The notes beneath the pieces were generated by a model. It did no database searches and was not told where the DNA came from. It worked only from the letters and a program-made list of their open reading frames with translations. A stretch of DNA of 17,821 bases from Candidatus Tectimicrobiota bacterium (lineage in GTDB: Bacteria > JACPSX01): the NCBI GenBank assembly GCA_016193065.1, contig JACPSX010000022.1, forward strand, positions 1 to 17,821, in the 5' to 3' direction. Position 1 is the stretch's first letter. Each line of letters begins with the position of its first letter. This document shows positions 1,841-17,313 of the stretch, piece after piece. The position numbers and the translations under genes are program-made.

Positions 1841-3196
1841 ATGCCTGCGGGGAGCGCAAAGCCGTATCCTTTCATGAAGATCAAGCCTCCGGGCCCGAAA
1901 GCGCGGACGCTCGTGAATCTGGATTCCCAGTTCGTCTCCCAGTCCTACACCCGGAATTACCCTCTAGTGGCTGACCGGGGCGAAGGGGCCATGGTGGTTG
2001 ACGTGGACGGCAATTGCTATTTGGATTTTACAGCGGGAATTGCGGTGTGCGCTACAGGTCACTCCCATCCCAAGGTGGTAGAGGCCATTACCCGCCAAGC
2101 CAAACGTCTGATCCACATGTCGGGGACGGATTTCTACTATTCTTCCCAGATCGCCCTGGCCCGGAAGCTCTCCGAAATTGCGCCCGGGAGGAAACCGAAG
2201 AAGGTTTTCTTCGGGAATTCCGGCGCGGAAGCCATTGAGGCCGCCTTCAAGCTGGCTCGCTATCACACCAAACGGACCATGGCGATTGCCTTTTACGGAG
2301 CCTTCCACGGGCGCACCATGGGGGCCTTGTCGCTGACGGCCAGCAAGACGATTCAAAGAAAGAGCTATATTCCCCTGGTGCCCGGTGTCGTCCACGTCCC
2401 GTACGCTTACTGCTACCGCTGTGACTATAACCTCACCTATCCAAGTTGCCGGGTTTCCTGCGTCGACTGGATAAAGGACTCGCTCTTCCGCTCCTCGGTG
2501 CCACCTGAGGAGGTAGCAGCCATATTCGTAGAGCCTATTCAGGGCGAAGGGGGCTACATTGTTCCTCCCCCTGAATTCCATGCCAAACTCCACCAAATTG
2601 CCCGGGACCATGGGATCCTCTACGTGGTCGATGAAGTGCAAAGCGGCATGGGGCGCACGGGGAAGATGTTTGCCATCGAACACTTCGGTGTGGAGCCCGA
2701 CATTATTGCGGTGGCCAAGGGAATTGCCTCCGGTCTACCCCTTGGAGCGATGATCGCCACGGCTGACATCATGGACTGGACCCATGGCTCTCATGCCAGT
2801 ACGTTCGGGGGGAATCCGGTGTCCTGTGAGGCGGCCCTCGCCACAATTGAACTCCTCGAAAACGGCCTTCTGGCGAACGCCGCCACCATGGGGGACTACC
2901 TCATAAAGGGCCTGATGAAGTTGCAGCCCCAGCATCCTCTGATCGGCGACATCCGGGGCAAAGGGCTCATGATTGGCATAGAGCTGGTCAAGGATCGGTC
3001 AAGTCGAGCCCCCGCCATTGACGAGCGCAATCGGGTCGTTCAGGGCTGTTTCGAGCGGGGACTCCTGGTGCTCGGCTGTGGTCAGTCCACTGTACGTTTC
3101 TCTCCACCCCTGATCATTGACCAGGAAGATGCAGATATCGCCCTGGGGATCTTCTCAGAGGTTTTAGCGGAGGTGGAAAAAGGGGTTAGTCCTTAG
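1841..3196 (+). CDS. Class III PLP-dependent aminotransferase (acetylornithine/ornithine/4-aminobutyrate family)
   Basis: A cytosolic 451-aa fold type I enzyme that moves an amino group, usually from an omega-amine such as ornithine, acetylornithine or 4-aminobutyrate, to 2-oxoglutarate. Visible marks: phosphate-binding GNSGAEA at 125-131, FHGRTMG at 155-161, cofactor-binding Asp264 in YVVDEVQSG, the PLP Schiff-base Lys293 in AVAKGI, and STFGGNPVSCEA further on. Between the large-domain halves is a cysteine cluster C191-x2-C194-x8-C203-x3-C207. As I recall, this is typical of the archaeal/bacterial subgroup that includes broad-range ornithine aminotransferases and some amino-acid racemases, and it could bind metal. 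The start has the strong ribosome-binding site AAGGAGAGAGG. The stop region overlaps convergent thiL by 11 nt. No arginine, GABA or lysine pathway gene is adjacent, so the substrate is open. Confidence 0.88.
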   Translation: MPAGSAKPYPFMKIKPPGPKARTLVNLDSQFVSQSYTRNYPLVADRGEGAMVVDVDGNCYLDFTAGIAVCATGHSHPKVVEAITRQAKRLIHMSGTDFYYSSQIALARKLSEIAPGRKPKKVFFGNSGAEAIEAAFKLARYHTKRTMAIAFYGAFHGRTMGALSLTASKTIQRKSYIPLVPGVVHVPYAYCYRCDYNLTYPSCRVSCVDWIKDSLFRSSVPPEEVAAIFVEPIQGEGGYIVPPPEFHAKLHQIARDHGILYVVDEVQSGMGRTGKMFAIEHFGVEPDIIAVAKGIASGLPLGAMIATADIMDWTHGSHASTFGGNPVSCEAALATIELLENGLLANAATMGDYLIKGLMKLQPQHPLIGDIRGKGLMIGIELVKDRSSRAPAIDERNRVVQGCFERGLLVLGCGQSTVRFSPPLIIDQEDADIALGIFSEVLAEVEKGVSP

Positions 3197-4223
3197 GCTC
3201 TTCCGAGGGGAAACCAGCACCCCGGGAAAAGTGATCGTACCCGGTGACGGGCAACTCTCTTAGGGCGCCATCTTTGGACCGCAACCGGAGTTCCGGCTCC
3301 CGGGTGATTTCCCCGATGACGAGCAGGGGACCGCACCCCTCCTGAAGGATCTGCTTCTGGAGTCGTTCGACGTTCGGGGCGGGAACTGCGACGAGGAGGC
3401 GATAATCTTCTCCGCCTCCTAAAGCCCAAGCAATGGGATCTTCTCCCAGGAGGGCCGCGGCCCGGCGGGCCGCCGCAGAAACCGGTAGGGAACTCTCCTC
3501 CACAATCGCACCGACCCCGCTGCGGGTACAAATATGGCCAAGATCCTGGGAAAGCCCGTCGCTTATGTCGATCATGGCCGATGCCAGGCGGGCCTCCCCG
3601 ATCCGGCAGCCCAGGGGAAAAGCTGGAGTCGGATTCCGATGCCAATCCAGCAGACCCTGCAGAGCAGGATCATCTGTCCCAACCCCTCGCTTGAGCAGTT
3701 CCATCCCCGCCCGTGACTCTCCCAGGGGGCCCGATACCAGAAGCCGATTTCCAGGGCCGGCACCCGAGCGAAAAAGGAGATCCTCCTTGGGAGCTCTACC
3801 CACCAGGGTAGCGCTGATCAGTAGACCGGAGGGAGAGGATGTTGTATCTCCCCCCACCAGAGTCACGCCACAAAAGTCGGCCATCTCACGTACTCCAACC
3901 AGGAACTCCTCCAAAAAGGGGACTGCAGTGCTGGGCGGGATCCCCAGGGACAGAAGGGCATAGCTCGGTATCCCCCCCATGGCCATGATGTCACTGACGT
4001 TCACCGCAATGGATTTACGCCCCAGGGCGCGGGGGGAGGTCCAGGACAAACGGAAATGGACGCCTTCCACCAGGGCGTCTGTTGTGAGGAGCAGACAGTA
4101 GTCCCCTTGGTCTAGGACCGCGCAATCATCTCCGATTCCTTGCAGAACATCCGAGGCTCCGGGCGGAAAGAGTTTCTCAATCCGGCCAATCAGTCCAAAT
4201 TCTCCCAGATCCTTGAGGCGCAT
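3186..4223 (-). CDS. thiL: Thiamine-monophosphate kinase
   Basis: Phosphorylates thiamine monophosphate to the cofactor thiamine diphosphate with ATP, the last step of thiamine synthesis, in the cytosol. The 345-aa protein shows the family marks in order: GIGDDCAV at 29-36, TTDALVEGVHF at 47-57, NVSDIMAMGG at 75-84, VGGDTT at about 123-128, IDISDGLSQDL at 218-228 and GGGEDY at 269-274. These are the Mg/ATP and TMP-binding loops of the PurM-like fold. I chose the ATG at 4223, with AAGG 6 nt upstream (AAAGGTATCT), because the protein then begins MRLKDLGEFGLIGRIEKLF as usual. An in-frame ATG at 4304 would add 27 basic residues. It stands alone on its strand, divergent from clpB, with no other thi gene in view. 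Confidence 0.93.
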   Translation of the reverse strand: MRLKDLGEFGLIGRIEKLFPPGASDVLQGIGDDCAVLDQGDYCLLLTTDALVEGVHFRLSWTSPRALGRKSIAVNVSDIMAMGGIPSYALLSLGIPPSTAVPFLEEFLVGVREMADFCGVTLVGGDTTSSPSGLLISATLVGRAPKEDLLFRSGAGPGNRLLVSGPLGESRAGMELLKRGVGTDDPALQGLLDWHRNPTPAFPLGCRIGEARLASAMIDISDGLSQDLGHICTRSGVGAIVEESSLPVSAAARRAAALLGEDPIAWALGGGEDYRLLVAVPAPNVERLQKQILQEGCGPLLVIGEITREPELRLRSKDGALRELPVTGYDHFSRGAGFPSEEPKD

Positions 4224-4299
4224 AGATACCTTTGACTCTTTCAGTTCTTGCTTGGATTGCCCTCTTTTCATCCTGAGAAATGACGTAAACTCTTTATAC

Positions 4300-4341
4300 A
4301 ACAATTGCTTATATATACATGAATTTAATATATAATAAAAC
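4300..4341 (+). promoter_or_regulatory. AT-rich tract upstream of the clpB promoter (UP-element-like)
   Basis: This is the only strongly AT-rich stretch in the window (for example AATTTAATATATAATAAAAC) and it abuts the -35 box of the clpB promoter. Such tracts often contact the alpha C-terminal domain of RNA polymerase and raise promoter strength. The divergent thiL promoter probably lies in the same tract, but I could not fix its boxes. Confidence 0.4.
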
Positions 4342-4370
4342 TTGACAATGTCAGACTAAAGCATTACATT
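4342..4370 (+). promoter_or_regulatory. Promoter of clpB
   Basis: TTGACA (4342-4347), a 17-nt spacer and TACATT (4365-4370). The -35 box is consensus and is part of a 14-nt block, ATAAAACTTGACAA, repeated exactly in front of dnaK. The -35 also lies inside the palindrome TGACA-A-TGTCA (4343-4353), a possible operator. No CIRCE element is present. Confidence 0.7.
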
Positions 4371-4438: not shown

Positions 4439-6912
4439 ATGCGCTATGACCGCTTCACCATCAAGTCCCAAGAAGTCCTCGAAAGGGCCCAGCGTCGAGC
4501 CCAGGCACTGGATCATCAGGCCCTGGATGTCGAGCACTTGGCCCTGGAGATGGTTGAGGAGCGGGAGGCCCAAGTCCAAGGCATTGGAACGGAGAACTTT
4601 TACATCTCGCCGCGCCTAAAAGCGGTCTTGGATCAGGCACTCAAAGAAGCTGAGCAGTTGAGAGACGAGTATGTCAGTGGCGAACACTTGCTCCTGGCTA
4701 TGGTGAATGAACGAGGAGGAGAAACCGCTGCCCTCCTCGCCCGGCAAGGAGTCACCCGGGAAGGGATTCTTCGCGCTCTGCAGGCCATCCGGGGCAGCCA
4801 GCGGGTCACCGATCCGAATCCCGAGGAGAAATATCAGGCCCTGGCCCGCTACAGCCGGGATCTCACGGACCTGGCCCGCAAGGGGAAGGTGGACCCTGTG
4901 ATCGGGCGGGATGAGGAAATTCGCCGGATCATCCAGGTCCTCTCCCGAAGGACGAAGAATAACCCGGTCCTCATTGGAGAGCCCGGGGTGGGAAAGACCG
5001 CCATCGTGGAAGGGCTGGCTCAACGGATCGTGGCTGGAGACGTCCCCGAGGGACTCAAAGAAAAGCGCCTCGTGGCTTTGGATATGGGAGCCCTCATTGC
5101 TGGATCCAAGTACCGAGGGGAATTTGAAGACCGGCTCAAAGCGGTGTTGAAGGAAATCGAGGAAGCCCAGGGACAAATCATTTTATTCATTGACGAGATC
5201 CACACCCTCGTGGGGGCTGGAGCCGCCGAGGGAGCCACAACGAGTACAGAAAACGCATCGAAAAAGACGCCGCCCTGGAGCGCCGCTTCCAGCCTGTGTT
5301 TGTCCGCGAGCCCACCGTGGAGGACACAATTGCCATCTTGCGCGGGCTCAAGGAGCGCTACGAAGTTCATCACGGAGTGAGGATCAAGGACTCGGCCCTG
5401 GTGGCCGCCGCCACTCTTTCGAACCGCTACATCACGGACCGCTTTCTTCCAGACAAGGCGGTGGACCTGATGGACGAAGCCGCCTCGCGGCTGCGCATGG
5501 AGATCGATAGCATGCCGGCCGAAATTGATGAGGTGGAGCGCAAACGGATTCAGCTCGAGATTGAGCGGGAAGCCTTGCGAAAGGAATCCGACCCTCCCTC
5601 GCTGGATCGCTTCCGCCAGATCGAATCTGAGATTGAGGCGCTCTGCGCGCAAAGTACCCGGATGAAGGCTCAGTGGCAGCGGGAGAAGGAAGTGATCCAG
5701 AAGATCTCGATGCTCAAAGAACGCCTGGAATCAGCTAAACTCGAGGAGCAGCAGGCCCAGCGCCAGGGGGATCTTGGTAAGGCCGCCGAGCTGCGCTACG
5801 GCACCCTCCTTACCCTGCAAAAGGAACTCCAGGAGGAGCAATCCCGTCTTGTCGCGCTCCAGGCCAATGGTCCCATGCTCAAGCAGGAAGTCGACGAGGA
5901 AGACGTGGCCCGCATCGTGGCCAAATGGACCGGAATCCCGGTGGCTAAGATGCTGGAAGGCGAAGTGGAGAAACTCATCAAAATGGAAGAGCGGCTCACG
6001 GAGCGGGTCGTGGGACAGGACGAGGCGGTCCGACTGGTCTCCAACACGCTCAGGCGAGCCCGTGCCGGATTGCAGGATCCCAACCGCCCCATTGGGTCCT
6101 TCATTTTCATGGGGCCTACCGGGGTCGGCAAGACCGAGCTGGCCCGAGCCCTGGCCGAGTTCATGTTTGACGACGAACAGGCCATGATCCGCCTGGACAT
6201 GTCGGAGTTCATGGAAAAGCACTCCGTGGCCCGCCTGATCGGCGCCCCGCCGGGCTATGTGGGCTATGAGGAGGGGGGATATTTGACCGAGGCGGTCCGC
6301 CGGAGACCGTACAGCGTGGTCCTCTTCGACGAGATTGAAAAGGCCCACAGTGATGTCTTTAACCTCCTCCTGCAAATCTTGGATGACGGACGTCTTACAG
6401 ACGGCCATGGGAGAACCGTCGACTTCAAAAACTCGATTTTCATCATGACCTCGAATCTGGGTAGCCAGTGGCTCCAGGACCTGAACCAGACGAACCGGGA
6501 AGAGGTCCACAATCGGGTCATGGAGACGCTCCGGGCCAAATTCCGGCCCGAATTCTTGAACCGGATCGATGAGACGGTGATCTTTAACCAGTTGGGCCGG
6601 GAGGAGATCGGGGCAATCATCGACATCCAACTGCGACGTTTCCAAAAGCGCCTTGCCGAGCGCGACCTGGAACTCATCGTGTCCCCATCAGCCAAGGACC
6701 TCTTGTTCCAGAAAGGGTACGATCCCACCTATGGGGCCCGTCCCCTGCGCAGAGCCATTCAACGAGCTCTGCAGGACCCCCTGGCACTAAAAATCCTGAC
6801 GGGAGAATTCCCGCCGGGGAGTGCCATCGAGGTTTCAGGGGATCCGACGCGGGGAGAGATGATCTTCAATCGGCTGGAATCCCCTGTAGAGGCAAAAATC
6901 CTCGCGGAGTAG
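4439..6912 (+). pseudogene. clpB: ATP-dependent disaggregase ClpB, disrupted by deletions (frameshift in NBD1)
   Basis: ClpB is the hexameric AAA+ unfoldase that works with DnaK/DnaJ to rescue aggregates. The first 266 codons are in frame: Clp N-domain, Walker A GEPGVGKT at 180-187 and Walker B FIDE at 250-253, ending GAGAAEGA. The sequence then jumps at about 5237 to [17 protein letters not shown] in another frame, which stays open to 6912. It carries the coiled-coil middle domain, the second Walker A GPTGVGKT, Walker [12 protein letters not shown] and a full C-terminus. Compared with the family, about 24 residues (MDAGNMLKPAL...IGATTL, including sensor 1) are missing, which fits a single 70-nt deletion. 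The first frame runs on out of register to a stop at 5380. The N-domain is also about 26 residues short near residues 43-46. The only in-frame restart noted, GTG 5296, has no ribosome-binding site. Real decay or assembly error are both possible. Gene identity is certain. Confidence 0.9.
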
Positions 6913-6941: not shown

Positions 6942-6970
6942 TTGACAAGAATACACTCAATGGGTATAAA
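6942..6970 (+). promoter_or_regulatory. Promoter of dnaK
   Basis: TTGACA (6942-6947), a 17-nt spacer and TATAAA (6965-6970), about 30 nt after the clpB stop. The -35 sits in ATAAAACTTGACAA (6935-6948), identical to the clpB promoter block. The leader from about 6977 is some 38 nt and ends in a strong ribosome-binding site, TAAGGAGG (7001-7008). Confidence 0.72.
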
Positions 6971-7014: not shown

Positions 7015-8925
7015 ATGGGAAAGATGGTGGGAATTGACCTGGGAACCACGCTCTCCGTGGTGGCAATCATGGAGGGAGGAGAACCCAAGGTTATTATAAA
7101 TGAGGAGGGGAGCCGTCTCACCCCTTCGGTTGTGGCCTTTAACAAAGAAGGGGAAATCCTGGTTGGGCAGATCGCCAAACGTCAGGCTGTCACGAACCCT
7201 GAGAATACCGTCTATTCCATCAAACGGTTCATGGGCCGCCGGTACGATGAGGTGACCGAAGAGATGAAGATGGTCCCCTACAAGGTCGTCAAGGCGCCCA
7301 ACGGGGACGCCAGGGTCAGCGTCCGGGGGAAAGAATATTCTCCCCCCGAGATCTCGGCGATGGTTTTGCAGAAATTAAAGAAATCGGCCGAAGCCTACCT
7401 GGGAGAGACGGTCACGGACGCGGTGATTACCGTGCCTGCCTACTTCAACGACTCTCAGCGCCAGGCCACCAAGGATGCCGGTCGGATCGCGGGGCTCAAC
7501 GTGCAGAGAATCATCAACGAGCCGACTGCTTCCGCCCTGGCCTACGGGCTGGATAAGAAGAAAGACGAGATCGTGGCCGTTTATGACTTCGGAGGCGGAA
7601 CCTTCGATATTTCAATCCTCGAGGTCGGCGATAACGTCGTCGAGGTGAAATCGACCAACGGTGACACCCATTTGGGCGGAGACAACCTGGACCAACGAAT
7701 CATCGACTGGCTGGTGGCGGAGTTTAAGAAGGATCAGGGGATTGACTTGAGCCGGGATCCCATGGCCATGCAGCGGCTCAAGGAAGGAGCCGAGAAAGCC
7801 AAGATCGAGCTCTCCAGCACCCTGGAGACGGATATTAACCTCCCCTTTGTTACCGCCGATGCCTCCGGGCCCAAGCACCTCAACATGAAGCTCACGCGGG
7901 CCAAGTTTGAACAAATGGTGGCGGACCTGCTCGATAAGACTCTGGGACCTTGCCGTCGGGCGATGGATGACGCTGGTTTAAAGACGAGCGATATCCACGA
8001 AGTGGTCCTGGTCGGGGGATCTACGCGGATTCCAAAAGTTCAGGAACTGGTGAAAAACTTCTTCGGTCGGGAGCCCCACAAGGGCGTGAATCCGGATGAG
8101 GTAGTCGCCCTGGGAGCTGCGGTCCAGGCGGGAGTCCTGTCGGGAGAAGTGAAAGATATTTTGCTCCTGGATGTTACTCCCTTGTCCCTTGGGATCGAGA
8201 CCCTGGGGGGGGTCATGACGAAGCTCATCGAGCGCAATACGACGATCCCCACCCGGAAGAGCGAGATCTTCTCAACCGCCGCGGACAGCCAGACGAGCGT
8301 GGAGATCCACGTCCTCCAGGGCGAGCGGGAGCTGGCTCGGGACAACCGGACCCTCGGGCGCTTTCACCTAGTGGGGATTCCACCGGCTCCTCGAGGAGTC
8401 CCTCAAATCGAGGTGACCTTCGACATCGACGCTAACGTGATCGTCAACGTCTCCGCCAAAGACCTGGGAACCGGCAAGGAGCAGGCGATCACGATCACGG
8501 CCTCGAGCGGAGTCTCGGAAGACGAGATCAAACGAATGGTTAAGGAGGCCGAATCCCACGCTGAAGAGGACAAACGGAAGCGGCAGGAGATCGAGCAGCG
8601 CAACCAGCTCGATGGTCTCATCTACACGGTCGAAAAAACCCTCCAGGAGAACAAGGACAAGCTCTCCGAGGGAGAGATCAAGCCCCTGGAGGAGGCGATC
8701 CGAGAAGCCAAAGACGCCCTGCAAAGCCAGGACGCCCCCCGGATCCAGAAGGCCAATGAGCGCCTGACCCAGGCCTCTCACAAACTGGCCGAGGTCATGT
8801 ATCAGAAGGTCAAGTCCGGCAAGGATCAAACCGCTTCCTCACCGAGCGGCACCTCTGCCAGCAGTTCTCCTGAAGAGGGGGAAGTCGTGGACGCGGAATA
8901 CGAGGATCCGGCCAGCAAGAAGTAA
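7015..8925 (+). CDS. dnaK: Hsp70 chaperone DnaK
   Basis: ATP-driven cytosolic chaperone that binds exposed hydrophobic peptides and, with DnaJ and a nucleotide-exchange factor, folds or protects proteins. The 636-aa length is normal. The ATPase domain shows GIDLGTTLS at 6-14, the IKRFMGRRY segment with the catalytic lysine, [24 protein letters not shown] and LVGGSTRIP. The interdomain linker is [19 protein letters not shown]. The substrate-binding domain ([28 protein letters not shown]) and helical lid follow, and the tail ends [16 protein letters not shown] as usual. Residue 13 is Leu where most bacterial DnaKs have Asn (TTNS). The start is fixed by TAAGGAGG 6 nt upstream. It has its own promoter after clpB and leads into dnaJ 51 nt downstream. 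No grpE is in the window. Confidence 0.98.
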
Positions 8926-8976: not shown

Positions 8977-10059
8977 ATGGCAAAACGGGATTATTATGAA
9001 ACCTTGGGCGTTAAACGAAATGCTTCCCTGGCCGAGATCAAGAAGGCATACCGGAAACTGGCGCGGAAATATCACCCGGACTTAAACCCGGCAAATGCCG
9101 AGGCGGAACGGAAGTTTAAGGAAATCTCGGAGGCCTACCAAGTCCTCAGCGATCCGGAAAAACGCAAGCGCTACAATCAGTTCGGACATGAGGGGTTTCA
9201 GGCCCAACCGGGATTTGACTCAAGCCCCTTTTCCCAGTACACTCAAGGTCCCGAAGGTTTCAATTTCAGCAACTTGGGAGATCTTTTCGGGGATCTTTTT
9301 GGGCGGGCCCGAGGGGCGCAGGCACAGGCACCCCGAGCGGGAAAGGACCTCCATTACACGGTGGAAATTGGCTTCGAGGACGCCGTGAAAGGGGTGACCC
9401 CCACGATTTCCATCACTCGGGAAGAAGCCTGCCCCCGCTGCCGCGGCACCGGAGCACTGGGGTCTCCCACGATTTGCCCGGAGTGCAAGGGTAGTGGCCA
9501 GATTGGAGTCATCAGCGGGCTGGGGTTCGGCCGCACCTGCCCCCGCTGCCAGGGGCGCGGCAATCTGGTGACCAACCCCTGCCCAGCCTGCCACAGCAAG
9601 GGGACCCAGCCCAAAACGGAGCAGATCTCCGTTAAAATCCCGCCCGGGGTCGATACGGGGTCCAAGATCCGCTTTGCGGGCAAGGGGGAACATCTGGGAA
9701 ACGGCAGCTCCCCGGGAGACCTTTATATAGTGACCAAGGTTCGGCCCGACCCCAGATTTGTGCGGAAAGGGGACAATATTCATACCGAGCTCCCCATTAC
9801 CGTCAGCGAGGCGGCCTTGGGAGCCAAGGTCCCGGTTCAAACGATCGACGGGATTACCACAATGGTGATTCCTCCGGGTACCCATAGCGGTCAGATATTC
9901 CGCCTGCGCGAAAGAGGGATGCCCCATCTGAAAGGCGGGGGGAGAGGGGACCACTACGTGACGGTCAAGATTACTCTACCCAAGCACCTTGACGAGAAGG
10001 GCCGCCAGATCCTCGAAGAATTCGCGCGTGTCTGCCCTTACGATCCAAGGAAAGAATAG
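8977..10059 (+). CDS. dnaJ: Co-chaperone DnaJ (Hsp40)
   Basis: Stimulates DnaK ATP hydrolysis and hands it substrates. The 360-aa protein has the full type I layout: J-domain at 4-68 with HPD at 33-35, a Gly/Phe-rich stretch at about 70-112, a zinc-finger region with four Cys pairs (152/155 CPRCRGTG, 167/170 CPECKGSG, 188/191 CPRCQGRG, 202/205 CPACHSKG), then the two beta-barrel C-terminal domains ([52 protein letters not shown]). The fourth zinc repeat lacks the first Gly of CxxCxGxG but keeps both cysteines. It is slightly shorter than E. coli DnaJ (376 aa). AGGGA lies before the ATG. It follows dnaK by 51 nt and precedes the diadenylate cyclase by 12 nt, so it is very likely co-transcribed with both. 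Confidence 0.97.
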
Positions 10060-10071
10060 GGTCCAGGTGCA

Positions 10072-10941
10072 ATGAAGAAGCTAACACGGATCATCCTGGA
10101 GTCTGCTGCCTCGGTGGCCCATAAGGTCGAAGCCAGTGCGATCTTTGTCCATGCCGATCTGGTACCCGATCCCGAGACCCTTAAAAAAGTCGTGGGGGAA
10201 TCCCGGATCATTCTGGTCTGCCGGGGGGATAACACACTAGAGAAGGGAGAATGCGCGGCGCTGGGCCTGGGAACGATCCTCGTCCCCCCGATTCTGCTCA
10301 GCCGGATCGGTCAGATCAAAATGGGGGTCATGATCGCCATTTCCCAGGGGCTCGTCAAGGTCGGGGATACGATCGTATGCATTGCCGGCATCCCCAGGAC
10401 GGGAGTCGCCGATACCCTCATGGTTTTGGAGATTGGCGAGGAATTCGAAATCCTCAACTCGGTCGAATCGGTCGCCATGGCGAAGGCCGTCTCGCCAGAA
10501 GTGTTCGAGACCGTCCTCCACTTGGCTCTGGAGCTTTCTTGCGAAGGACGGGAAGGCAAACCGGTAGGCTCCATTTTGGTTATCGGTGATCATGAGAAGG
10601 TTTTGCAGTACTCGCGCCAACTCGTGATCAACCCCTTTCAAGGCTATTCGGACGAGGAGCGCAGCATTTTTAACCCCCAGATGCAGAAGACCGTCAAAGA
10701 GTTCTCAACCATCGACGGCGCCTTCATTGTCCGTGCCGACGGCGTGGTCCTGTGCGCCGGGCGACATCTGAACGCCGCCTACGAGGGGGAGGACCTGCCC
10801 CACGGATTGGGCTCGCGCCACATGGCAGCCGCGGCCATCACCGATGTCACCGATGCCGCTGCCATTGCCATTTCAGAATCCACGGGGACGGTGACCGTAT
10901 TCAAGGGGGGGAAAATCTTCACCGAGATCGAGCGGCCGTGA
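10072..10941 (+). CDS. Diadenylate cyclase: pyruvate-kinase-C-like domain plus DisA_N (DAC) domain
   Basis: Predicted to make cyclic di-AMP from two ATP. Residues about 1-135 resemble the pyruvate kinase C-terminal alpha/beta domain (AISQGLVKVGDTIVCIAGIP, then GVADTLMVLEIGE). Residues about 200-285 form a DAC domain with the catalytic DGA at 215-217, GLGSRHM at 246-251 where many cyclases have RHR, and the trailing DAAAIAISESTGTVTVF block. This two-part layout is that of archaeal DacZ rather than bacterial CdaA, CdaS or DisA. There is no membrane segment and no DNA-binding HhH domain, so it is probably soluble. It starts 12 nt after dnaJ, so it belongs to the chaperone operon. The third position of the RHR motif is Met, so activity should be tested. 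Family call is firm; activity is inferred. Confidence 0.88.
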   Translation: MKKLTRIILESAASVAHKVEASAIFVHADLVPDPETLKKVVGESRIILVCRGDNTLEKGECAALGLGTILVPPILLSRIGQIKMGVMIAISQGLVKVGDTIVCIAGIPRTGVADTLMVLEIGEEFEILNSVESVAMAKAVSPEVFETVLHLALELSCEGREGKPVGSILVIGDHEKVLQYSRQLVINPFQGYSDEERSIFNPQMQKTVKEFSTIDGAFIVRADGVVLCAGRHLNAAYEGEDLPHGLGSRHMAAAAITDVTDAAAIAISESTGTVTVFKGGKIFTEIERP

Positions 10942-11010: not shown

Positions 11011-11037
11011 GTTTTGCTCTGTAAGGAGGCGAGTTGT

Positions 11038-11898
11038 ATGAACAACACTCTGAGAACGGCAATGCTCCTGGGGTTGCTGACGGGTTTGCTGGTCCTCATC
11101 GGAGGCTATTTGGGTGGGCAACAGGGGATGGTGATCGCCTTTGTGCTGGCTGGCCTGATGAATTTTGCCAGCTACTGGTTCTCCGACAAGATCGTGCTGA
11201 TGATGTACCGGGCCAGGCAACTGGAGCCCAAGGACAATCCAACCCTCTTCTCGGCGGTGGAACGTCTTACCCGCAAAGCGGGTCTGCCCATGCCCCGGGT
11301 CTTCCTGATTCCTTCCGAGGGGGCCAATGCGTTTGCCACCGGCCGGGATCCCCAGCACGCGGCGGTAGCCGTCACAGCGGGGATTCTGGAGCTGTTGAGT
11401 TCCGAGGAGCTGGAGGGGGTGTTGGCCCACGAACTGGCCCATGTGAAGAACCGCGACATTCTGATCGGCTCCATTGCGGCCACGATCGCGGGGGCGATTA
11501 TGATGCTGGCCAACATGGCCCGCTGGGCGGCCCTGTTCGGGGGAATGGGGCGCCGGGATGGGGAAGAGCGCGGAGGGGGCGATCTGTTGGGCTTTATCTT
11601 TCTGGCCTTCCTGGCTCCCATTGCGGCCATGCTGATCCAGATGGCGGTCTCCCGGGCCCGGGAATACCAGGCGGACGCCAGCGGGGCTCGCCTGGCGGGG
11701 ACCCCGCTGGGGCTCGCGGCGGCTTTGGAGAAGCTGCACAGGGTCGCGGAGCGCCAGCCTCTGGAGGCCGGTCCGGCCACAGCCCACCTGTTCATCGTCA
11801 ATCCGCTCAGCGGCCGGACCTTAATGACCCTCTTCAGCACCCATCCGGCGGTGGAAGAGCGGGTGGCACGCCTGCGCGCCATGCTGGGGAGAATGTGA
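11038..11898 (+). CDS. htpX: Membrane-bound zinc metalloprotease HtpX (M48 family)
   Basis: Degrades misfolded or damaged inner-membrane proteins, a heat-shock function in many bacteria. The 286-aa protein has two N-terminal membrane spans (about 7-26 and 30-48), the zinc motif HELAH at 131-135 and the third ligand Glu209 in REYQAD. Two further hydrophobic segments (about 143-165 and 184-203) lie between them. The conserved NAFATGR at 97-103 and the C-terminal [13 protein letters not shown] are also present. The start at 11038 has AAGGAGG 8 nt upstream; an in-frame TTG at 11014 lies upstream of that site and is less likely. It follows the diadenylate cyclase by 96 nt, enough for its own promoter. 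Its place behind clpB, dnaK and dnaJ fits a common stress role. Confidence 0.95.
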
Positions 11899-11967
11899 GA
11901 CCAGTGGGACTCCCCCCTCAAAGTAAGCCGGCAACTCCTTCTAATTTACTTGGTGAGGAAAGAAGGG

Positions 11968-12228
11968 ATGACAATGGATAACGACCTGTATGAAAGCGCC
12001 TTTGCCCGGGTCCCGAACCGTTTCTTGCTAAACACCGTGCTCGCCAAAAGAGTGCACCAGTTGAACAAAGGAGCCCCGCCGATGGTCGAGGCGAATGGCT
12101 CGAGCTTTTTTGAGATCGCACTGCGCGAGATCATCGCGGGGAAGCTGCAATTCCATACCGCAACCCCCGAGGAACTGAAGTCCCAGCGCGAAGAGGTGAA
12201 GAAACCGGAGAGCGAGGAGAAGCCGTGA
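11968..12228 (+). CDS. rpoZ: RNA polymerase omega subunit
   Basis: Small subunit that helps fold and hold the beta-prime subunit of RNA polymerase. The protein (86 aa from ATG 11968, or 84 aa from ATG 11974) shows the omega pattern: RVPNRFLLNTVLAKRVHQL at 14-32, KGAPPMV at 34-40 and the hallmark ALREIIAGKL at 51-60, then a charged tail. AGGA at 11956-11959 suits the first ATG and GAAGGG at 11962-11967 the second. A still earlier in-frame ATG at 11950 has no site. The TGA overlaps the GTG of the ABC ATPase (GTGA), so rpoZ is translationally linked to the exporter genes. This is an unusual neighbourhood for rpoZ, which commonly sits beside gmk or spoT. The family is divergent at the N-terminus but the call is good. 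Confidence 0.85.
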   Translation: MTMDNDLYESAFARVPNRFLLNTVLAKRVHQLNKGAPPMVEANGSSFFEIALREIIAGKLQFHTATPEELKSQREEVKKPESEEKP

Positions 12229-13169
12229 TCGAAGTTGAGGGACTAACCAAGTATTACGGCCCCTCCCGGGCCATCGAGAACGTCACATTCAGCGTGAACC
12301 GGGGAGAAGTTCTCGGTTTCCTGGGACCCAACGGGTCCGGCAAAACGACGACCATGCGGATCCTGACCTGCTTTATGCCGGCCACCCGAGGCAGCGTGCG
12401 GGTGGCTGGACACGATGTCTTCCGCAATCCTCTGGAGGTCAAGAAAAACATCGGCTATCTTCCCGAAAATGTCCCCCTGTACACGGACATGACCGTGAGG
12501 GGTTTTCTGAACTTTTTCGCGGAAATCAAAGGAGTCGAAAAGGGCACGCGGAAGGCGCGGATCGATGAAGTCATGGCCAACTGCGGTGTGGAAGACGTGG
12601 GGGATAAACTGATCTCCAAGCTCTCCAAAGGGTATCGGCAGAGGGTGGGGTTGGCCCAGGCCCTGCTCAACAATCCCCCGGTCCTGATCCTGGATGAACC
12701 CACCACGGGACTCGACCCCAGGCAGATCATCGAGATCCGCGAGCTGATCCGTAGACTCTCCGGGGAAAAGACGGTCATCCTTTGCACCCACATTCTCCCC
12801 GAAGTGGAGATGCTGTGCGGCCGGGTCCTCATCATCAATGAGGGCACGGTTGTGGCCGAGGATACCCCCGAGAATCTCACCACCGGGCTCCAGCGCTCCC
12901 ACCGTATCCATCTCCAGGTGGAAGGTCCTGCTGCCGAGGTCGCAGCGAGCCTGGAAGAAGTCCCTGGCGTCCTGCGGGTTAAACAGAGTTCCCCCCCGTC
13001 CTCCGGGCCTCATTCCTACGACCTCGAGGTGGACAAGTCCGATGAGGCCCGCAAGGCATTGGCCCGCATGATCGTCAACCGGGGTTGGGGGCTTCTGGAA
13101 ATGCGCACCATCGACCTGAGCCTGGAGGACGTGTTCGTGAAACTCGTCACCACCGAGAACGGCGGATAG
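12225..13169 (+). CDS. ABC-2 type exporter, ATP-binding protein (GldA-like)
   Basis: Powers a membrane exporter whose permease is the next gene. The 314-aa protein contains Walker A GPNGSGKT at 34-41, YLPENVPLY at 78-86 (the Q-loop region, with Glu in the usual Gln place as in many GldA-like ATPases), signature LSKGY at 133-137, Walker B LILDE at 154-158, the D-loop GLDP and the H-loop His189 in CTHIL. The last ~100 residues form an extra domain ending SLEDVFVKLVT, as usual for ABC-2 drug/polysaccharide-type ATPases. The GTG start overlaps the rpoZ stop by 4 nt. The permease follows by 10 nt. The substrate is unknown; gliding is not implied by the GldA likeness outside Bacteroidetes. Confidence 0.92.
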   Translation: MIEVEGLTKYYGPSRAIENVTFSVNRGEVLGFLGPNGSGKTTTMRILTCFMPATRGSVRVAGHDVFRNPLEVKKNIGYLPENVPLYTDMTVRGFLNFFAEIKGVEKGTRKARIDEVMANCGVEDVGDKLISKLSKGYRQRVGLAQALLNNPPVLILDEPTTGLDPRQIIEIRELIRRLSGEKTVILCTHILPEVEMLCGRVLIINEGTVVAEDTPENLTTGLQRSHRIHLQVEGPAAEVAASLEEVPGVLRVKQSSPPSSGPHSYDLEVDKSDEARKALARMIVNRGWGLLEMRTIDLSLEDVFVKLVTTENGG

Positions 13170-13179
13170 GATTCTCACC

Positions 13180-13950
13180 ATGCGAAACTTTTTGCCAATC
13201 TTCAAGAAAGAACTCGCTTCTTACTTCACTTCCCCCATTGCCTACATCGTCTACTGCATGTTTCTAATCATCGTGGGTTATCTGTTCTACAGCGGCATCT
13301 CCTTTTTCAGCATCCTGAGCTTTCAGTCCCTGAACAACCCCAACCTGGCGCAAGGGCTCAATGTTACGGAGGGGGTATTTCGACCGCTGTATCTCAACAT
13401 GGGGGTGATCCTGCTTCTCATGATGCCCCTGCTCACGATGCGGCTGTTTGCCGAAGAGAAGAAGTCGGGCACCATCGAACTCCTGCTCACGAACCCGATC
13501 CGCGACGTGGAAGTCCTGCTCGGAAAATACGCGGCCTGCATGGCGGTCTACCTCGTCATGCTTCTACTCACGGCGCTCTTCCCCGCATTTACCACCTTGG
13601 TGGGCAGTCCCGAAGCGGGGCCGATTCTCAGCTCCTATTTGGGGCTCTTGCTGCTCGGCGCCTCTTTTATCGCCATCGGCACCTTGGTCTCTTCCCTTAC
13701 CGAGAATCAGATCATCGCCGCGGCGGTCACCTTCGGCATTCTCCTGCTGCTCTGGGTCATCAGTTGGTCGGCCTCGTTCGCCGGCCCCACCTGGGGAACC
13801 CTCTTGCTCCACCTTTCGGCCACGGAACATTTTCAGAACTTCGCCAAGGGGGTCGTTGACACCCAGGACGTTATCTACTACCTGAACCTTTCGGTGTTTT
13901 GTCTCTTTTTAACCTTGAGATCGCTCGAATCGAAGCGTTGGAGGGGATGA
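13180..13950 (+). CDS. ABC-2 type exporter, permease (GldF-like)
   Basis: Inner-membrane channel subunit for the ATPase upstream. The 256-aa protein opens with the ABC-2 signature MRNFLPIFKKELASYFTSPI and has six predicted spans at about 20-42, 69-88, 116-138, 149-171, 177-198 and 232-247. Between spans 2 and 3 lies EEKKSGTIELLLTNPI (92-107), the typical coupling-helix segment that docks on the ATPase. A non-membrane loop of about 25 residues after span 1 would face the periplasm. The start at ATG 13180 is 10 nt after the ATPase stop. The next gene starts 4 nt after its stop, consistent with co-translation. The partner is clear; the exported molecule is not. Confidence 0.9.
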   Translation: MRNFLPIFKKELASYFTSPIAYIVYCMFLIIVGYLFYSGISFFSILSFQSLNNPNLAQGLNVTEGVFRPLYLNMGVILLLMMPLLTMRLFAEEKKSGTIELLLTNPIRDVEVLLGKYAACMAVYLVMLLLTALFPAFTTLVGSPEAGPILSSYLGLLLLGASFIAIGTLVSSLTENQIIAAAVTFGILLLLWVISWSASFAGPTWGTLLLHLSATEHFQNFAKGVVDTQDVIYYLNLSVFCLFLTLRSLESKRWRG

Positions 13951-13954
13951 GCTG

Positions 13955-15538
13955 ATGTCAGCACGGCTCAGGACTGTACTCTGGATATTGGGGTTTCTCC
14001 TTACCGTCGGGGGCGCGATTGCCTACGTAATCAAGCCCCTCTTGACTCCTGTGACATCGGTGGCCTTGGGCCTGGGGCTCTTGATGCTCCTGGTGAACCT
14101 GTACTTGAACTTTGCAGACGTGCGCCGCTTTCTGGGGAAGCGGTCCACCCGCTACGGCGGCAACCTGGCCGTTCTGGCCCTCATCGTTTTGGCCATCGCG
14201 GTGCTTGTGCAGGGCCTGGCCACCCGCCACAACCTGCGCTGGGACCTAACCGAAAACAAGCGCTTCAGCCTCTCCCCACAGACCCGTAACATCCTCAAGA
14301 ACCTGAAGAAGAACACGGAGATTCTCGCCTTTTACCGGGACACGGAAGCAGGTAAACAGAGCCTGAAGGACCTTCTGGAAGAATACACCAACTCCTCCTC
14401 ACGGTTTAAGTACCGCTTCGTAGATCCCGATCGCTCCCCGAACCTGGCCAAAGAATACAAGGTAGCTGCGTACGGAACTCTGGTCCTGGAAAGCGGCGGC
14501 AAGAGGGAGAAGGTTGAAAGCGATACGGAACAGGCCATTACCAATGGTCTTCTCAAGGTAACGCGCGACCGGGAGAAAACCATCTATATGATCACCGGCC
14601 ATGGAGAGAAACAGATCACGAGCCAGGACAAAACCGGATTTAGCGCGGCCAAGCAAGCCGTCGAAGAACAAAACTACAAGGTCAAAGAACTTGTTCTCTT
14701 GCGAGAAAAGGCAGTCCCCCAGGACGCGGCTGTTGTGGTGATCCCGGGTCCGAGCCGAGACTTTTTCCCGGAAGAACTCTCCACGCTTACCGACTATATT
14801 GACCGCGGGGGGAAACTCCTGGTCATGCTGGAACCCCAGGTGGAGACGCCCCGCCTCAGCAAGCTCTTGGAGGACTACGGCATCGAGGTGGGGAACAATG
14901 AGATCATCGACCGTTTGAGCCGAGTTTTCGGCGCCGACTACACCATGCCCGTGGTCACCCAGTACGCCCGGCACCCGATCACCGCGAACTTTGGGGTGGC
15001 TTCCTTCTTCCCCTCGACCCGCTCCGTGACTCCGGTGAAAAAGCCGAAGACCGGAGTGGAGGTCCAACCCCTGGCTCTTACCGGTCCCAACAGCTGGGCT
15101 GAAACCGACCTGAAGAGACTCCGCCAGGGTAGCGCCGAATTCAACGAGGGCTCGGACATTGCCGGGCCCGTCTCCATTGCCGCTGTATCCTCCGTGGCGC
15201 CCAAAGAACGAGAGGATCCTAAAGGCCTGCTGTTTTCCGGGAAGAAAGGGCCCCCCAAGTCCGGCAAGGCCCGGATCGTCGTTTTCGGCGACTCCGATTT
15301 CGCCGGGAACACGGCGCTGGGCATCTCCGGAAACCGGGATCTTTTCCTGAACTCGTTGAGCTGGCTTGCCGAAGAAGAGGAATTAATCGCCATCCGGCCC
15401 AAGGACCAGTCCAACGCTCCCCTGCTGCTCTCGGCCACGGAAGGCCGCCTGGCCTTCTGGTTTCCCCTCGTCATCCTCCCCGCCACAGTCCTGGGAGCCG
15501 GTGTCTTTGTGATATGGCGGCGGAGGTGGAGCCGATGA
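13955..15538 (+). CDS. GldG-like ABC transporter auxiliary protein
   Basis: A 527-aa membrane protein of the GldG/ABC_transp_aux type that accompanies ABC-2 exporters. Residues 7-27, 34-52 and 70-89 are hydrophobic spans. The conserved block DLTENKRFSLSPQT at 97-110 marks the start of a large soluble domain, probably periplasmic, with alpha/beta character (VVVIPGPSRDFFPEEL, LTDYIDRGGKLLVMLEPQ, ARIVVFGDSDFAGN). One final span at about 499-519 is followed by the basic tail WRRRWSR. The two-span leader before the third span is longer than in basic GldG proteins. GGAGGGG precedes the ATG. It begins 4 nt after the permease stop and its TGA overlaps the next start (ATGA). The family is reliable; the biochemical role is undefined. 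Confidence 0.88.
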   Translation: MSARLRTVLWILGFLLTVGGAIAYVIKPLLTPVTSVALGLGLLMLLVNLYLNFADVRRFLGKRSTRYGGNLAVLALIVLAIAVLVQGLATRHNLRWDLTENKRFSLSPQTRNILKNLKKNTEILAFYRDTEAGKQSLKDLLEEYTNSSSRFKYRFVDPDRSPNLAKEYKVAAYGTLVLESGGKREKVESDTEQAITNGLLKVTRDREKTIYMITGHGEKQITSQDKTGFSAAKQAVEEQNYKVKELVLLREKAVPQDAAVVVIPGPSRDFFPEELSTLTDYIDRGGKLLVMLEPQVETPRLSKLLEDYGIEVGNNEIIDRLSRVFGADYTMPVVTQYARHPITANFGVASFFPSTRSVTPVKKPKTGVEVQPLALTGPNSWAETDLKRLRQGSAEFNEGSDIAGPVSIAAVSSVAPKEREDPKGLLFSGKKGPPKSGKARIVVFGDSDFAGNTALGISGNRDLFLNSLSWLAEEEELIAIRPKDQSNAPLLLSATEGRLAFWFPLVILPATVLGAGVFVIWRRRWSR

Positions 15539-17313
15539 GTTTCCGGAAAACTCTCCTCTTTGCTCTGATCCTGGCAGTGATCGCTGCTTTTTACTACCTC
15601 TACGAAATCCGGGGAGGCAGCATCCGACTGGCCAGGAGCAAGGCGGCGCAAAAACTTTTTGAGATCAAGACCGACGCCATCTCGGAAGTCAAACTGAAAA
15701 ATCCAAAAGGTCACTTCGTCCTGACCAAGAACGGAGAGGAATGGACACTCCGGGAACCGGTTCCTACCCCGGGCGATACGCAGGCCGTCTCGGATCTTAT
15801 CCGCATGGTCGCCGAGGCCCAGAGGGGCCGGATCATCGAAGAAAACCCCAAAGACCTCACTCCGTTCGGACTCAAACCTCCCAAGATGGAGGTTTCCTTC
15901 CCGGGAAAAGACAAATCGAAAACGCCTCCCCTTCTTCTCCTAGGAGACTCGAACCCCAGCGGCACCGAAGTTTATGCCCAAGTGGAGGGAAAGCCAGCGG
16001 TTTTTCTTCTGGACATGGCGATCAAAGCAGCCTTGGATAAAGGGCTCTACGAGTTTCGGGATAAACGTCTCCTCCCTTTCAAGACCAGCGAGGTCACCCA
16101 GATTCTCTGGAATCGCGGGAATCTGAAATTGACGTCGGGAAAAAACAAGGATGGATCCTGGTCTTTGGTAGAGCCCTTCAAAACGCCGGCGGACTCTCAA
16201 AAAATCGAAGATATACTTTTCCGCTTTGGACAGACTCAAGTAAAAGAGTTTATCACTGCCCAGAAAAAGAACCTATCCGAGTTCGGTACGGATAAACCCG
16301 CCGTCACTCTGGTTTTCAAAAGAGATAAGAAGCCGGATCTCACCCTCTCTTTTGGCCGCCGGCTCGCAAAGGAGAAAGAGGTCTACGCCCGGCGGGGCGG
16401 AGAGCAATCCATCCTGCGCGTTGAAGACGTGGTGCTCAAGGACATCCCGGAGACCCTCACGGCCATCCGGGACCGCGCCGTGTTTAAAGCCGATCAGGAT
16501 CACGTCCTAAAAGTGGATTGGAAGAAAGCAGACGGCTCCGAACTCCTCCTGGTCAAGACGATGAAAAACGGCTCCGAGGAATGGACAATCGAAAAGCCCG
16601 TGACCGCGCCGGCCGAACGATCGGAGGCCTACGGGCTACTCTGGGACCTGCATGATACCAAGCTGGAACGGTTTGTCGGCGACGCGCCGAAAGATCTCGC
16701 TCCTTACGGGTTAACTGCCCCGCAATGGACCGTGACCCTCTGGCAGAAAGGGGAGGAAAAGCCCCAGGTTCTAAAGATCGGAAAGGCAAGTCCGGGCTCC
16801 CAGGGCTTCTTTGCTATGGTCAGCTACTCGCCCTCGGTGTTCCTGTTGTCGAACGCCGGTTTCAAGCGGCTCTGGCGCAACCCGGAAGACCTGAGAGATC
16901 GCAAACTCCTGGACTTCGACACGGAAAGAATCTCAAAAGTGGAACTGCGTTACCAGACGATCACGGTACTCCTGGAAAAAAAAGGGAAACGCTGGCAGAT
17001 GCTGGCCCCCGAGAAAGCGGACATCGCGAGCCCCAAGATGATCGATCTGCTGTGGGGAGTGAAAGATCTCAAATTCAAGAAGGAGGTGAGCAACCAGGCC
17101 AAGGAATTGGACTCTTTTGGCCTGAAGAACGCTCAGATCCAGATCCGTCTCTGGGACGAAAAGGGTAAGCAGTTCCCGGCCTTGGCCGTGGGCTCAAGAA
17201 TTCCCAACAGCGACGAATACTACCTTGCCAAGGAGCCGTTCACCTCGGTTTACAGCGTGAGCTTCGACCTTCTCAACAAGCTCCCCAAAGGGCCCAGAGA
17301 TCTCCTGTTCTAA
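15535..17313 (+). CDS. DUF4340 protein with four tandem repeats
   Basis: A 592-aa protein with one N-terminal membrane anchor (about 6-24) and an otherwise soluble body, probably periplasmic. The body is four copies of a unit of about 140 residues. Each has W-T/S-L/M..P (W70, W209, W350, W487), an F/Y-G-L or FGT turn (111, 250, 391, 528), a [V/Y]Y[A/L] strand or equivalent, and an R-D ending (175-176, 312-313, 454-455, 588-589). This is the DUF4340 pattern, which is regularly found just behind GldG-type genes. I chose ATG 15535, which overlaps the GldG stop (ATGA) and follows GGAGGTGGAG; the in-frame start at 15514 lies inside the upstream gene without a site. Function unknown, likely a part of the exporter complex. 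Confidence 0.85.
   Translation: MSFRKTLLFALILAVIAAFYYLYEIRGGSIRLARSKAAQKLFEIKTDAISEVKLKNPKGHFVLTKNGEEWTLREPVPTPGDTQAVSDLIRMVAEAQRGRIIEENPKDLTPFGLKPPKMEVSFPGKDKSKTPPLLLLGDSNPSGTEVYAQVEGKPAVFLLDMAIKAALDKGLYEFRDKRLLPFKTSEVTQILWNRGNLKLTSGKNKDGSWSLVEPFKTPADSQKIEDILFRFGQTQVKEFITAQKKNLSEFGTDKPAVTLVFKRDKKPDLTLSFGRRLAKEKEVYARRGGEQSILRVEDVVLKDIPETLTAIRDRAVFKADQDHVLKVDWKKADGSELLLVKTMKNGSEEWTIEKPVTAPAERSEAYGLLWDLHDTKLERFVGDAPKDLAPYGLTAPQWTVTLWQKGEEKPQVLKIGKASPGSQGFFAMVSYSPSVFLLSNAGFKRLWRNPEDLRDRKLLDFDTERISKVELRYQTITVLLEKKGKRWQMLAPEKADIASPKMIDLLWGVKDLKFKKEVSNQAKELDSFGLKNAQIQIRLWDEKGKQFPALAVGSRIPNSDEYYLAKEPFTSVYSVSFDLLNKLPKGPRDLLF

Follow-up and report, generated by a model that had tools for sequence, protein, structure and literature searches.

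A DacZ-type diadenylate cyclase gene lies beside proteostasis genes in a Tectimicrobiota genome and in several other bacterial lineages

Introduction

c-di-AMP is known mainly as a signal for K+, osmolytes and the cell wall, and it is made by CdaA-type enzymes, whose gene lies with cdaR-glmM in Firmicutes. To our knowledge, this nucleotide is almost unstudied in the Gram-negative lineages considered here. Among the described cyclases, CdaA (DacA) of Firmicutes has N-terminal transmembrane helices (PMC6741144), and DisA carries a linker and DNA-binding domains in addition to its DAC fold. DacZ and CdaZ constitute one family with a PK_C-like fold, whose bacterial members have already been noted (Braun et al., 2019, PMC6741144). 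Its representatives in Haloferax volcanii (DacZ) and Methanocaldococcus jannaschii (CdaZ/DacY) are soluble and active cyclases (PMC6741144), and the haloarchaeal dacZ has been reported in an operon with mscS2, without chaperone genes.

Here, we describe a dacZ gene located among chaperone genes in a stretch of 17,821 nucleotides (hereafter, the window) from a Candidatus Tectimicrobiota bacterium, and compare its neighbourhood with those of its bacterial relatives. The window's phylum is represented by one genome in the collection searched, and the relatives compared come from other phyla.

Results

Domain structure and family placement of the window DacZ

The dacZ gene (10072..10941, + strand) is an uninterrupted open reading frame encoding 289 amino acids, with a DacZ_P/PK_C-like N-terminal domain and a DAC catalytic domain. 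A protein combining PK_C-like and DisA_N parts had been proposed at this position, and the Pfam matches bear it out: DAC (PF02457) covers residues 156-281 (3.2e-22, 78.8 bits against a cut-off of 27), DacZ_P (PF21755) covers residues 8-126 (2.8e-14, 53.3 bits against 27.4), and PK_C (PF02887) covers residues 8-118 at 1.7e-6 with 28.5 bits, barely above its cut-off of 28. In an AlphaFold model obtained from 19 aligned sequences (mean pLDDT 82), residues 1-129 resembled the pyruvate kinase C domain (Z ~15), and residues 134-289 resembled CdaA and DisA (Z ~14-16). The window protein thus has the DAC catalytic fold in common with both CdaA (Z ~15) and DisA, but differs from the former in having a PK_C-like domain at its N-terminus, with no membrane helices as judged from sequence only, and from the latter in lacking the linker and DNA-binding domains. 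Relatives in other phyla share ~50-55% identity with it across the full length, which excludes a chance resemblance. The window protein is predicted to be a diadenylate cyclase whose DAC domain would join two ATP molecules to give c-di-AMP, and the pyruvate-kinase-C-like domain is probably a small-molecule sensor.

The original prediction had also called this an archaeal-type cyclase, distinct from the usual bacterial ones. The DacZ-type assignment, as opposed to CdaA or DisA, holds: the CdaA model TIGR00159 (34.2 bits, cut-off 188.8) and the DisA model NF010009 (26.2 bits, cut-off 201) matched the DAC part only and stayed below their cut-offs, and the architecture, as well as the conserved DGA motif and the R and H residues, is that of the H. 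volcanii and M. jannaschii proteins. "Archaeal-type" in the sense of something foreign is not supported, since the family is common in bacteria (PMC6741144): our scan returned at least 539 loci encoding relatives, and the 80 of them that were retained are all bacterial (Syntrophales, Nitrospinota, Nitrospirota, Tectomicrobia, Desulfobacterales and others). The window protein is ~33-35% identical to the Haladaptatus DacZ and scores 149.9 bits with the haloarchaeal DacZ equivalog NF041371, below its cut-off of 430; with proteins of the bacterial DacZ/CdaZ branch from Syntrophales, Nitrospinota and Tectomicrobia it shares the same domains and 43-55% identity. By domain content and similarity, then, the window dacZ is one of the bacterial representatives of the DacZ/CdaZ family, and the label "archaeal-type" is fair historically but misleading biologically.

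The active site appears intact. The DGA motif occupies residues 215-217 (D215-G216-A217) and the second motif, RHM, residues 249-251; in the 19-row alignment of relatives, D215-G216, R249 and H250 do not vary. RHM had been singled out because it replaces RHR, which is literally true, and the third residue is indeed R in CdaA and DisA, so that a degenerate or altered cyclase, making a different product or none at all, might be imagined. That reading is extremely improbable. The third position is variable among 100 DacZ-type proteins (I in 40, V in 13, M in 10, R in 10, A in 7, S in 5 and L in 5) and is H in two haloarchaeal DacZ proteins of that set, both from Haladaptatus, whereas DGA and the preceding R and H are retained, and the H. 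volcanii and M. jannaschii cyclases are active members of the same family. RHM is therefore neither an anomaly nor a defect, and argues neither against activity nor for new chemistry.

Gene neighbourhood of dacZ in the window

The gene order in the window is clpB-dnaK-dnaJ-dacZ-htpX, all on the + strand and in an operon-like layout. As originally proposed, the cyclase gene starts 12 nt downstream of dnaJ (8977..10059; TIGR02349, 408.6 bits against a cut-off of 377.2) and precedes htpX, and these neighbours pass NCBIfam equivalog cut-offs. The dnaK gene (7015..8925) lies 51 nt upstream of dnaJ and scores above the cut-offs of TIGR02350 and NF001413. The htpX gene (11039..11898; NF002826, 383.5 bits against 369) encodes a membrane zinc metalloprotease; its start was listed as TTG at 11014, but the ATG at 11039, preceded by the ribosome-binding site TAAGGAGG (identified by eye), is likelier, leaving a gap of ~97 nt after dacZ. 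A scan of the + strand found no terminator-like sites in the dnaJ-dacZ and dacZ-htpX gaps. From this layout, dacZ most likely shares a transcript with dnaK and dnaJ, which may extend into htpX.

Upstream, clpB (4439..6912, + strand) is interrupted, being split between overlapping frames at 4439-5380 and 5296-6912; ~27 codons are absent and the reading frame shifts near 5234, which may reflect an assembly fault of this MAG or a truly broken gene. An rpoZ-like gene for an omega subunit (RNA_pol_Rpb6, PF01192, 3.5e-12; 11950..12228, + strand) directly follows htpX and is not clearly part of the system. At the edges of the window, a thiL-like gene (3186-4304, - strand) and a gene for a class III aminotransferase (1841-3196, + strand), both named by eye, lie upstream of clpB, and a Gld-type ABC cluster (12225-17313, + strand) follows rpoZ, in which an ABC transporter ATPase (identified by eye) is encoded together with an ABC-2 permease, a GldG-like ABC auxiliary protein and a protein of the DUF4340 family.

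Proteostasis genes beside dacZ across bacteria

Several bacterial relatives also adjoin heat-shock or proteostasis genes, but the partners differ from the dnaK-dnaJ-htpX context of the window. In the Syntrophales-type arrangement, rpoH is divergent from dacZ, which is followed by clpB and often by htpX, DUF1844, ispE and prs; NCBIfam models identify these RpoH, ClpB and HtpX proteins as true equivalogs. In Tectomicrobia/Entotheonella, dacZ is followed by dnaJ, then by a MerR-type regulator and a second dnaJ (L044:8943-12252 and L065:8928-11467), with htpX between these last two in L044; the regulator is HspR/CbpM-like by position. In marine Nitrospinota, dacZ begins 1-2 nt after the end of htrA, except in one locus where the two genes share 4 nt, and in one Zymogenaceae locus rpoH lies two genes away. 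Other clades show different surroundings, such as ychF and pth-rpl25-prs in the ychF-type clade, or an unknown gene and a NUDIX hydrolase in another.

To quantify this, 98 bacterial dacZ loci were searched by script for rpoH, clpB, htpX, dnaJ, dnaK and htrA within three genes. At least one gene of the set was present in 53 of the 98 loci, compared with none of 40 CdaA-type control loci from other bacterial genomes searched with the same queries; the linkage noticed in the window thus recurs in several bacterial lineages, so that the original prediction is not refuted by a lack of conservation in relatives. Set genes occupied 40 of 96 slots at position -1, 43 of 95 at +1 and 24 of 88 at +2, and only 2 of 499 at the distant positions ±5 to ±8, and the median gap between dacZ and a downstream chaperone or protease gene was 13 nt (43 loci). 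Because a single Syntrophales clade contributes 39 rows, loci were collapsed to lineages on the tree: the link was present in 7 of 20 lineages when the tree was cut at a depth of 1.0 (p 0.0002 against 0/40) and in 4 of 14 when it was cut at 1.5 (p 0.003), p values that are optimistic since the gene set was partly picked after looking at dacZ neighbours. On a 100-row dacZ tree the linked state changes at least eight times, a count that does not tell gain from loss and thus also fits a single ancestral cluster that was subsequently lost or rearranged in places.

The association is clade-specific, not universal. It is missing from the ychF-type loci (12), the Desulfobacterales/Myxococcota-type loci, those of Nitrospirota and both archaeal plasmid loci. 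No earlier report of a link between dacZ and proteostasis genes was found among the papers of an open-access library; what is new is this neighbourhood, the enzyme family and its bacterial members being already known.

Some unlinked loci carry other neighbours. A NUDIX-hydrolase-like gene lies closely downstream of dacZ in five loci of the Desulfobacterales/Myxococcota clade (L056, L059, L070, L105 and L110), with scores below the cut-off of the PRK10707 CoA pyrophosphatase model, which suggests another conserved partner in that clade. In two Nitrospirota MAGs, a DHH-DHHA1 gene overlaps the start of dacZ by ~4 nt (L035:6562-7950 and L037:6556-7965), plausibly forming a cyclase-phosphodiesterase operon. 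In a Planctomycetota MAG (L064:8945-9724), a universal stress protein (Usp) gene begins 38 nt after dacZ; in KdpD, the Usp domain is an established receptor for c-di-AMP.

Promoters upstream of dacZ

Putative sigma-70-type promoters precede both dnaK and clpB in the window. That of dnaK-dnaJ-dacZ-htpX (6942..6970, + strand; TTGACA-17-TATAAA, with TG shortly before the second hexamer) was read directly from the sequence, being absent from the list of the promoter scan, which accepts a second hexamer only if its sixth base is T; that of clpB (4342..4370, + strand; TTGACA-17-TACATT) was found by the scan. No CIRCE element was detected in the window with up to 3 mismatches allowed, and an HrcA gene is located elsewhere in the genome, beside an apparent grpE and another dnaJ (both by eye). 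The window contains no Rfam family, and hence no ydaO riboswitch.

In the rpoH-type loci, TTGAC-N-TAnnnT occurs upstream of dacZ in 33 of 34 cases, where shuffled sequences would give ~1, with the consensus CTTGACA-N13-TGNTTANNNTA. We interpret this promoter, conserved in Syntrophales, as sigma-70-type, and the TTGACA-17-TATAAA before dnaK in the window resembles it. Each genome has 1-4 copies of the motif, in some cases before genes that do not resemble heat-shock genes. As a heat-shock promoter, CTTGACA-N13-TGNTTANNNT was rejected: in six genomes it also precedes enoyl-CoA hydratase-, DUF134-, CRP-like-regulator- and toxin-antitoxin-like genes (by eye, judged from the beginnings of their sequences), and since these seem unrelated, a housekeeping role is likelier. 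Sites of the E. coli-type sigma-32 consensus upstream of dacZ did not exceed shuffles in nearly all loci, and the alpha-proteobacterial-type consensus CTTGA-N16/17-CYTATNT had 0 matches there. Nothing in these scans supports heat induction of dacZ, which weakens the original suggestion that c-di-AMP is produced along with chaperones under stress; steady co-expression with chaperones appears the simpler reading.

A promoter of this kind would also suit a neutral or structural co-location, in which a constitutive osmolyte cyclase sits beside proteostasis genes because both belong to ancestral blocks of housekeeping genes with steady expression, without any functional coupling. In the same direction point the ychF-type clade, where dacZ adjoins the pth-rpl25-prs housekeeping block, common to Syntrophales loci, without chaperones, and the fact that the biggest heat-shock group (39 rows) forms one clade and so goes back to one inheritance event. 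However, separate clades have different proteostasis genes beside dacZ, the excess survives the collapse to lineages, the CdaA controls show nothing comparable, and the gaps are operon-like. We regard this explanation as rather doubtful, though it keeps appreciable weight.

Cyclase repertoire, turnover and receptors

DacZ is the sole DAC match in the window genome (86% complete), and the only one in two single-contig Entotheonella chromosomes. A second DAC match, in most cases much stronger than that of DacZ, was present in 17 of 25 surveyed genomes, where DacZ therefore looks specialised; these second matches are consistent with a division of labour between cyclases. The original prediction had called for DHH-DHHA1 phosphodiesterases and c-di-AMP receptors to be sought in the genome. 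TrkA_C-containing (RCK_C/TrkA-type) proteins, candidate receptors of a type known for c-di-AMP, are present, but no dedicated GdpP-type phosphodiesterase was found in this 86% complete genome: its three DHHA1 matches resemble, by ORF length and gene order, AlaRS, RecJ and an NrnA-like protein linked to infB-rbfA-truB, and were discarded as candidates.

Discussion

The explanation that we favour, with moderate confidence, is that DacZ is a cyclase co-expressed with chaperones whose c-di-AMP tunes K+ and osmolytes during the response to protein damage. Through a shared dnaK-dnaJ-dacZ transcript, cyclase dosage would track chaperone dosage, and the c-di-AMP produced would adjust K+ and osmolyte balance, for instance via RCK_C/TrkA-type receptors. 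Two published findings offer leads: gdpP mutants turned up in a heat-resistance screen of L. lactis, as cited in PMC10243994, and DacA of S. mutans pulls down GroEL and FtsH (PMC13289029). Against this explanation weigh the clades that lack the link, the housekeeping features of the Syntrophales promoter, the missing sigma-32 enrichment and CIRCE element, the interrupted clpB of the window, and the failure to find a dedicated GdpP-type phosphodiesterase in this incomplete genome.

A different use of the same neighbourhood can be envisaged, in which DacZ itself relies on the neighbouring chaperones and proteases for its folding, oligomerisation or turnover, so that the link would serve the enzyme and not a stress output. 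HtpX and HtrA act as proteases in quality control. The S. mutans pull-down, in which DacA enriched GroEL and FtsH, led its authors to suggest tuning by proteostasis (PMC13289029). Nevertheless, DacZ is small and soluble, with two domains, the partner varies by clade (ClpB, DnaJ or HtrA), and rpoH as a neighbour is left unexplained, all of which makes this possibility unlikely.

Returning to a cyclase coupled to the damage response, a broader version can be put forward tentatively: in several distant lineages, DacZ may be a stress-dedicated proteostasis cyclase, acting in many species apart from a housekeeping CdaA-type cyclase. Protein damage would alter expression of the chaperone operon, DacZ would rise, and c-di-AMP would reset K+ and osmolytes in favour of refolding.

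The recurrence of dacZ beside heat-shock and quality-control genes in distant bacterial groups suggests an undescribed tie between c-di-AMP and protein repair. The idea can be tested in Syntrophus, a genus in culture, and the family also provides a natural two-cyclase arrangement. If a second class of cyclase is repeatedly encoded beside RpoH, ClpB, HtpX, DnaK/DnaJ or HtrA, c-di-AMP signalling in Gram-negative bacteria would be connected with the quality control of proteins.
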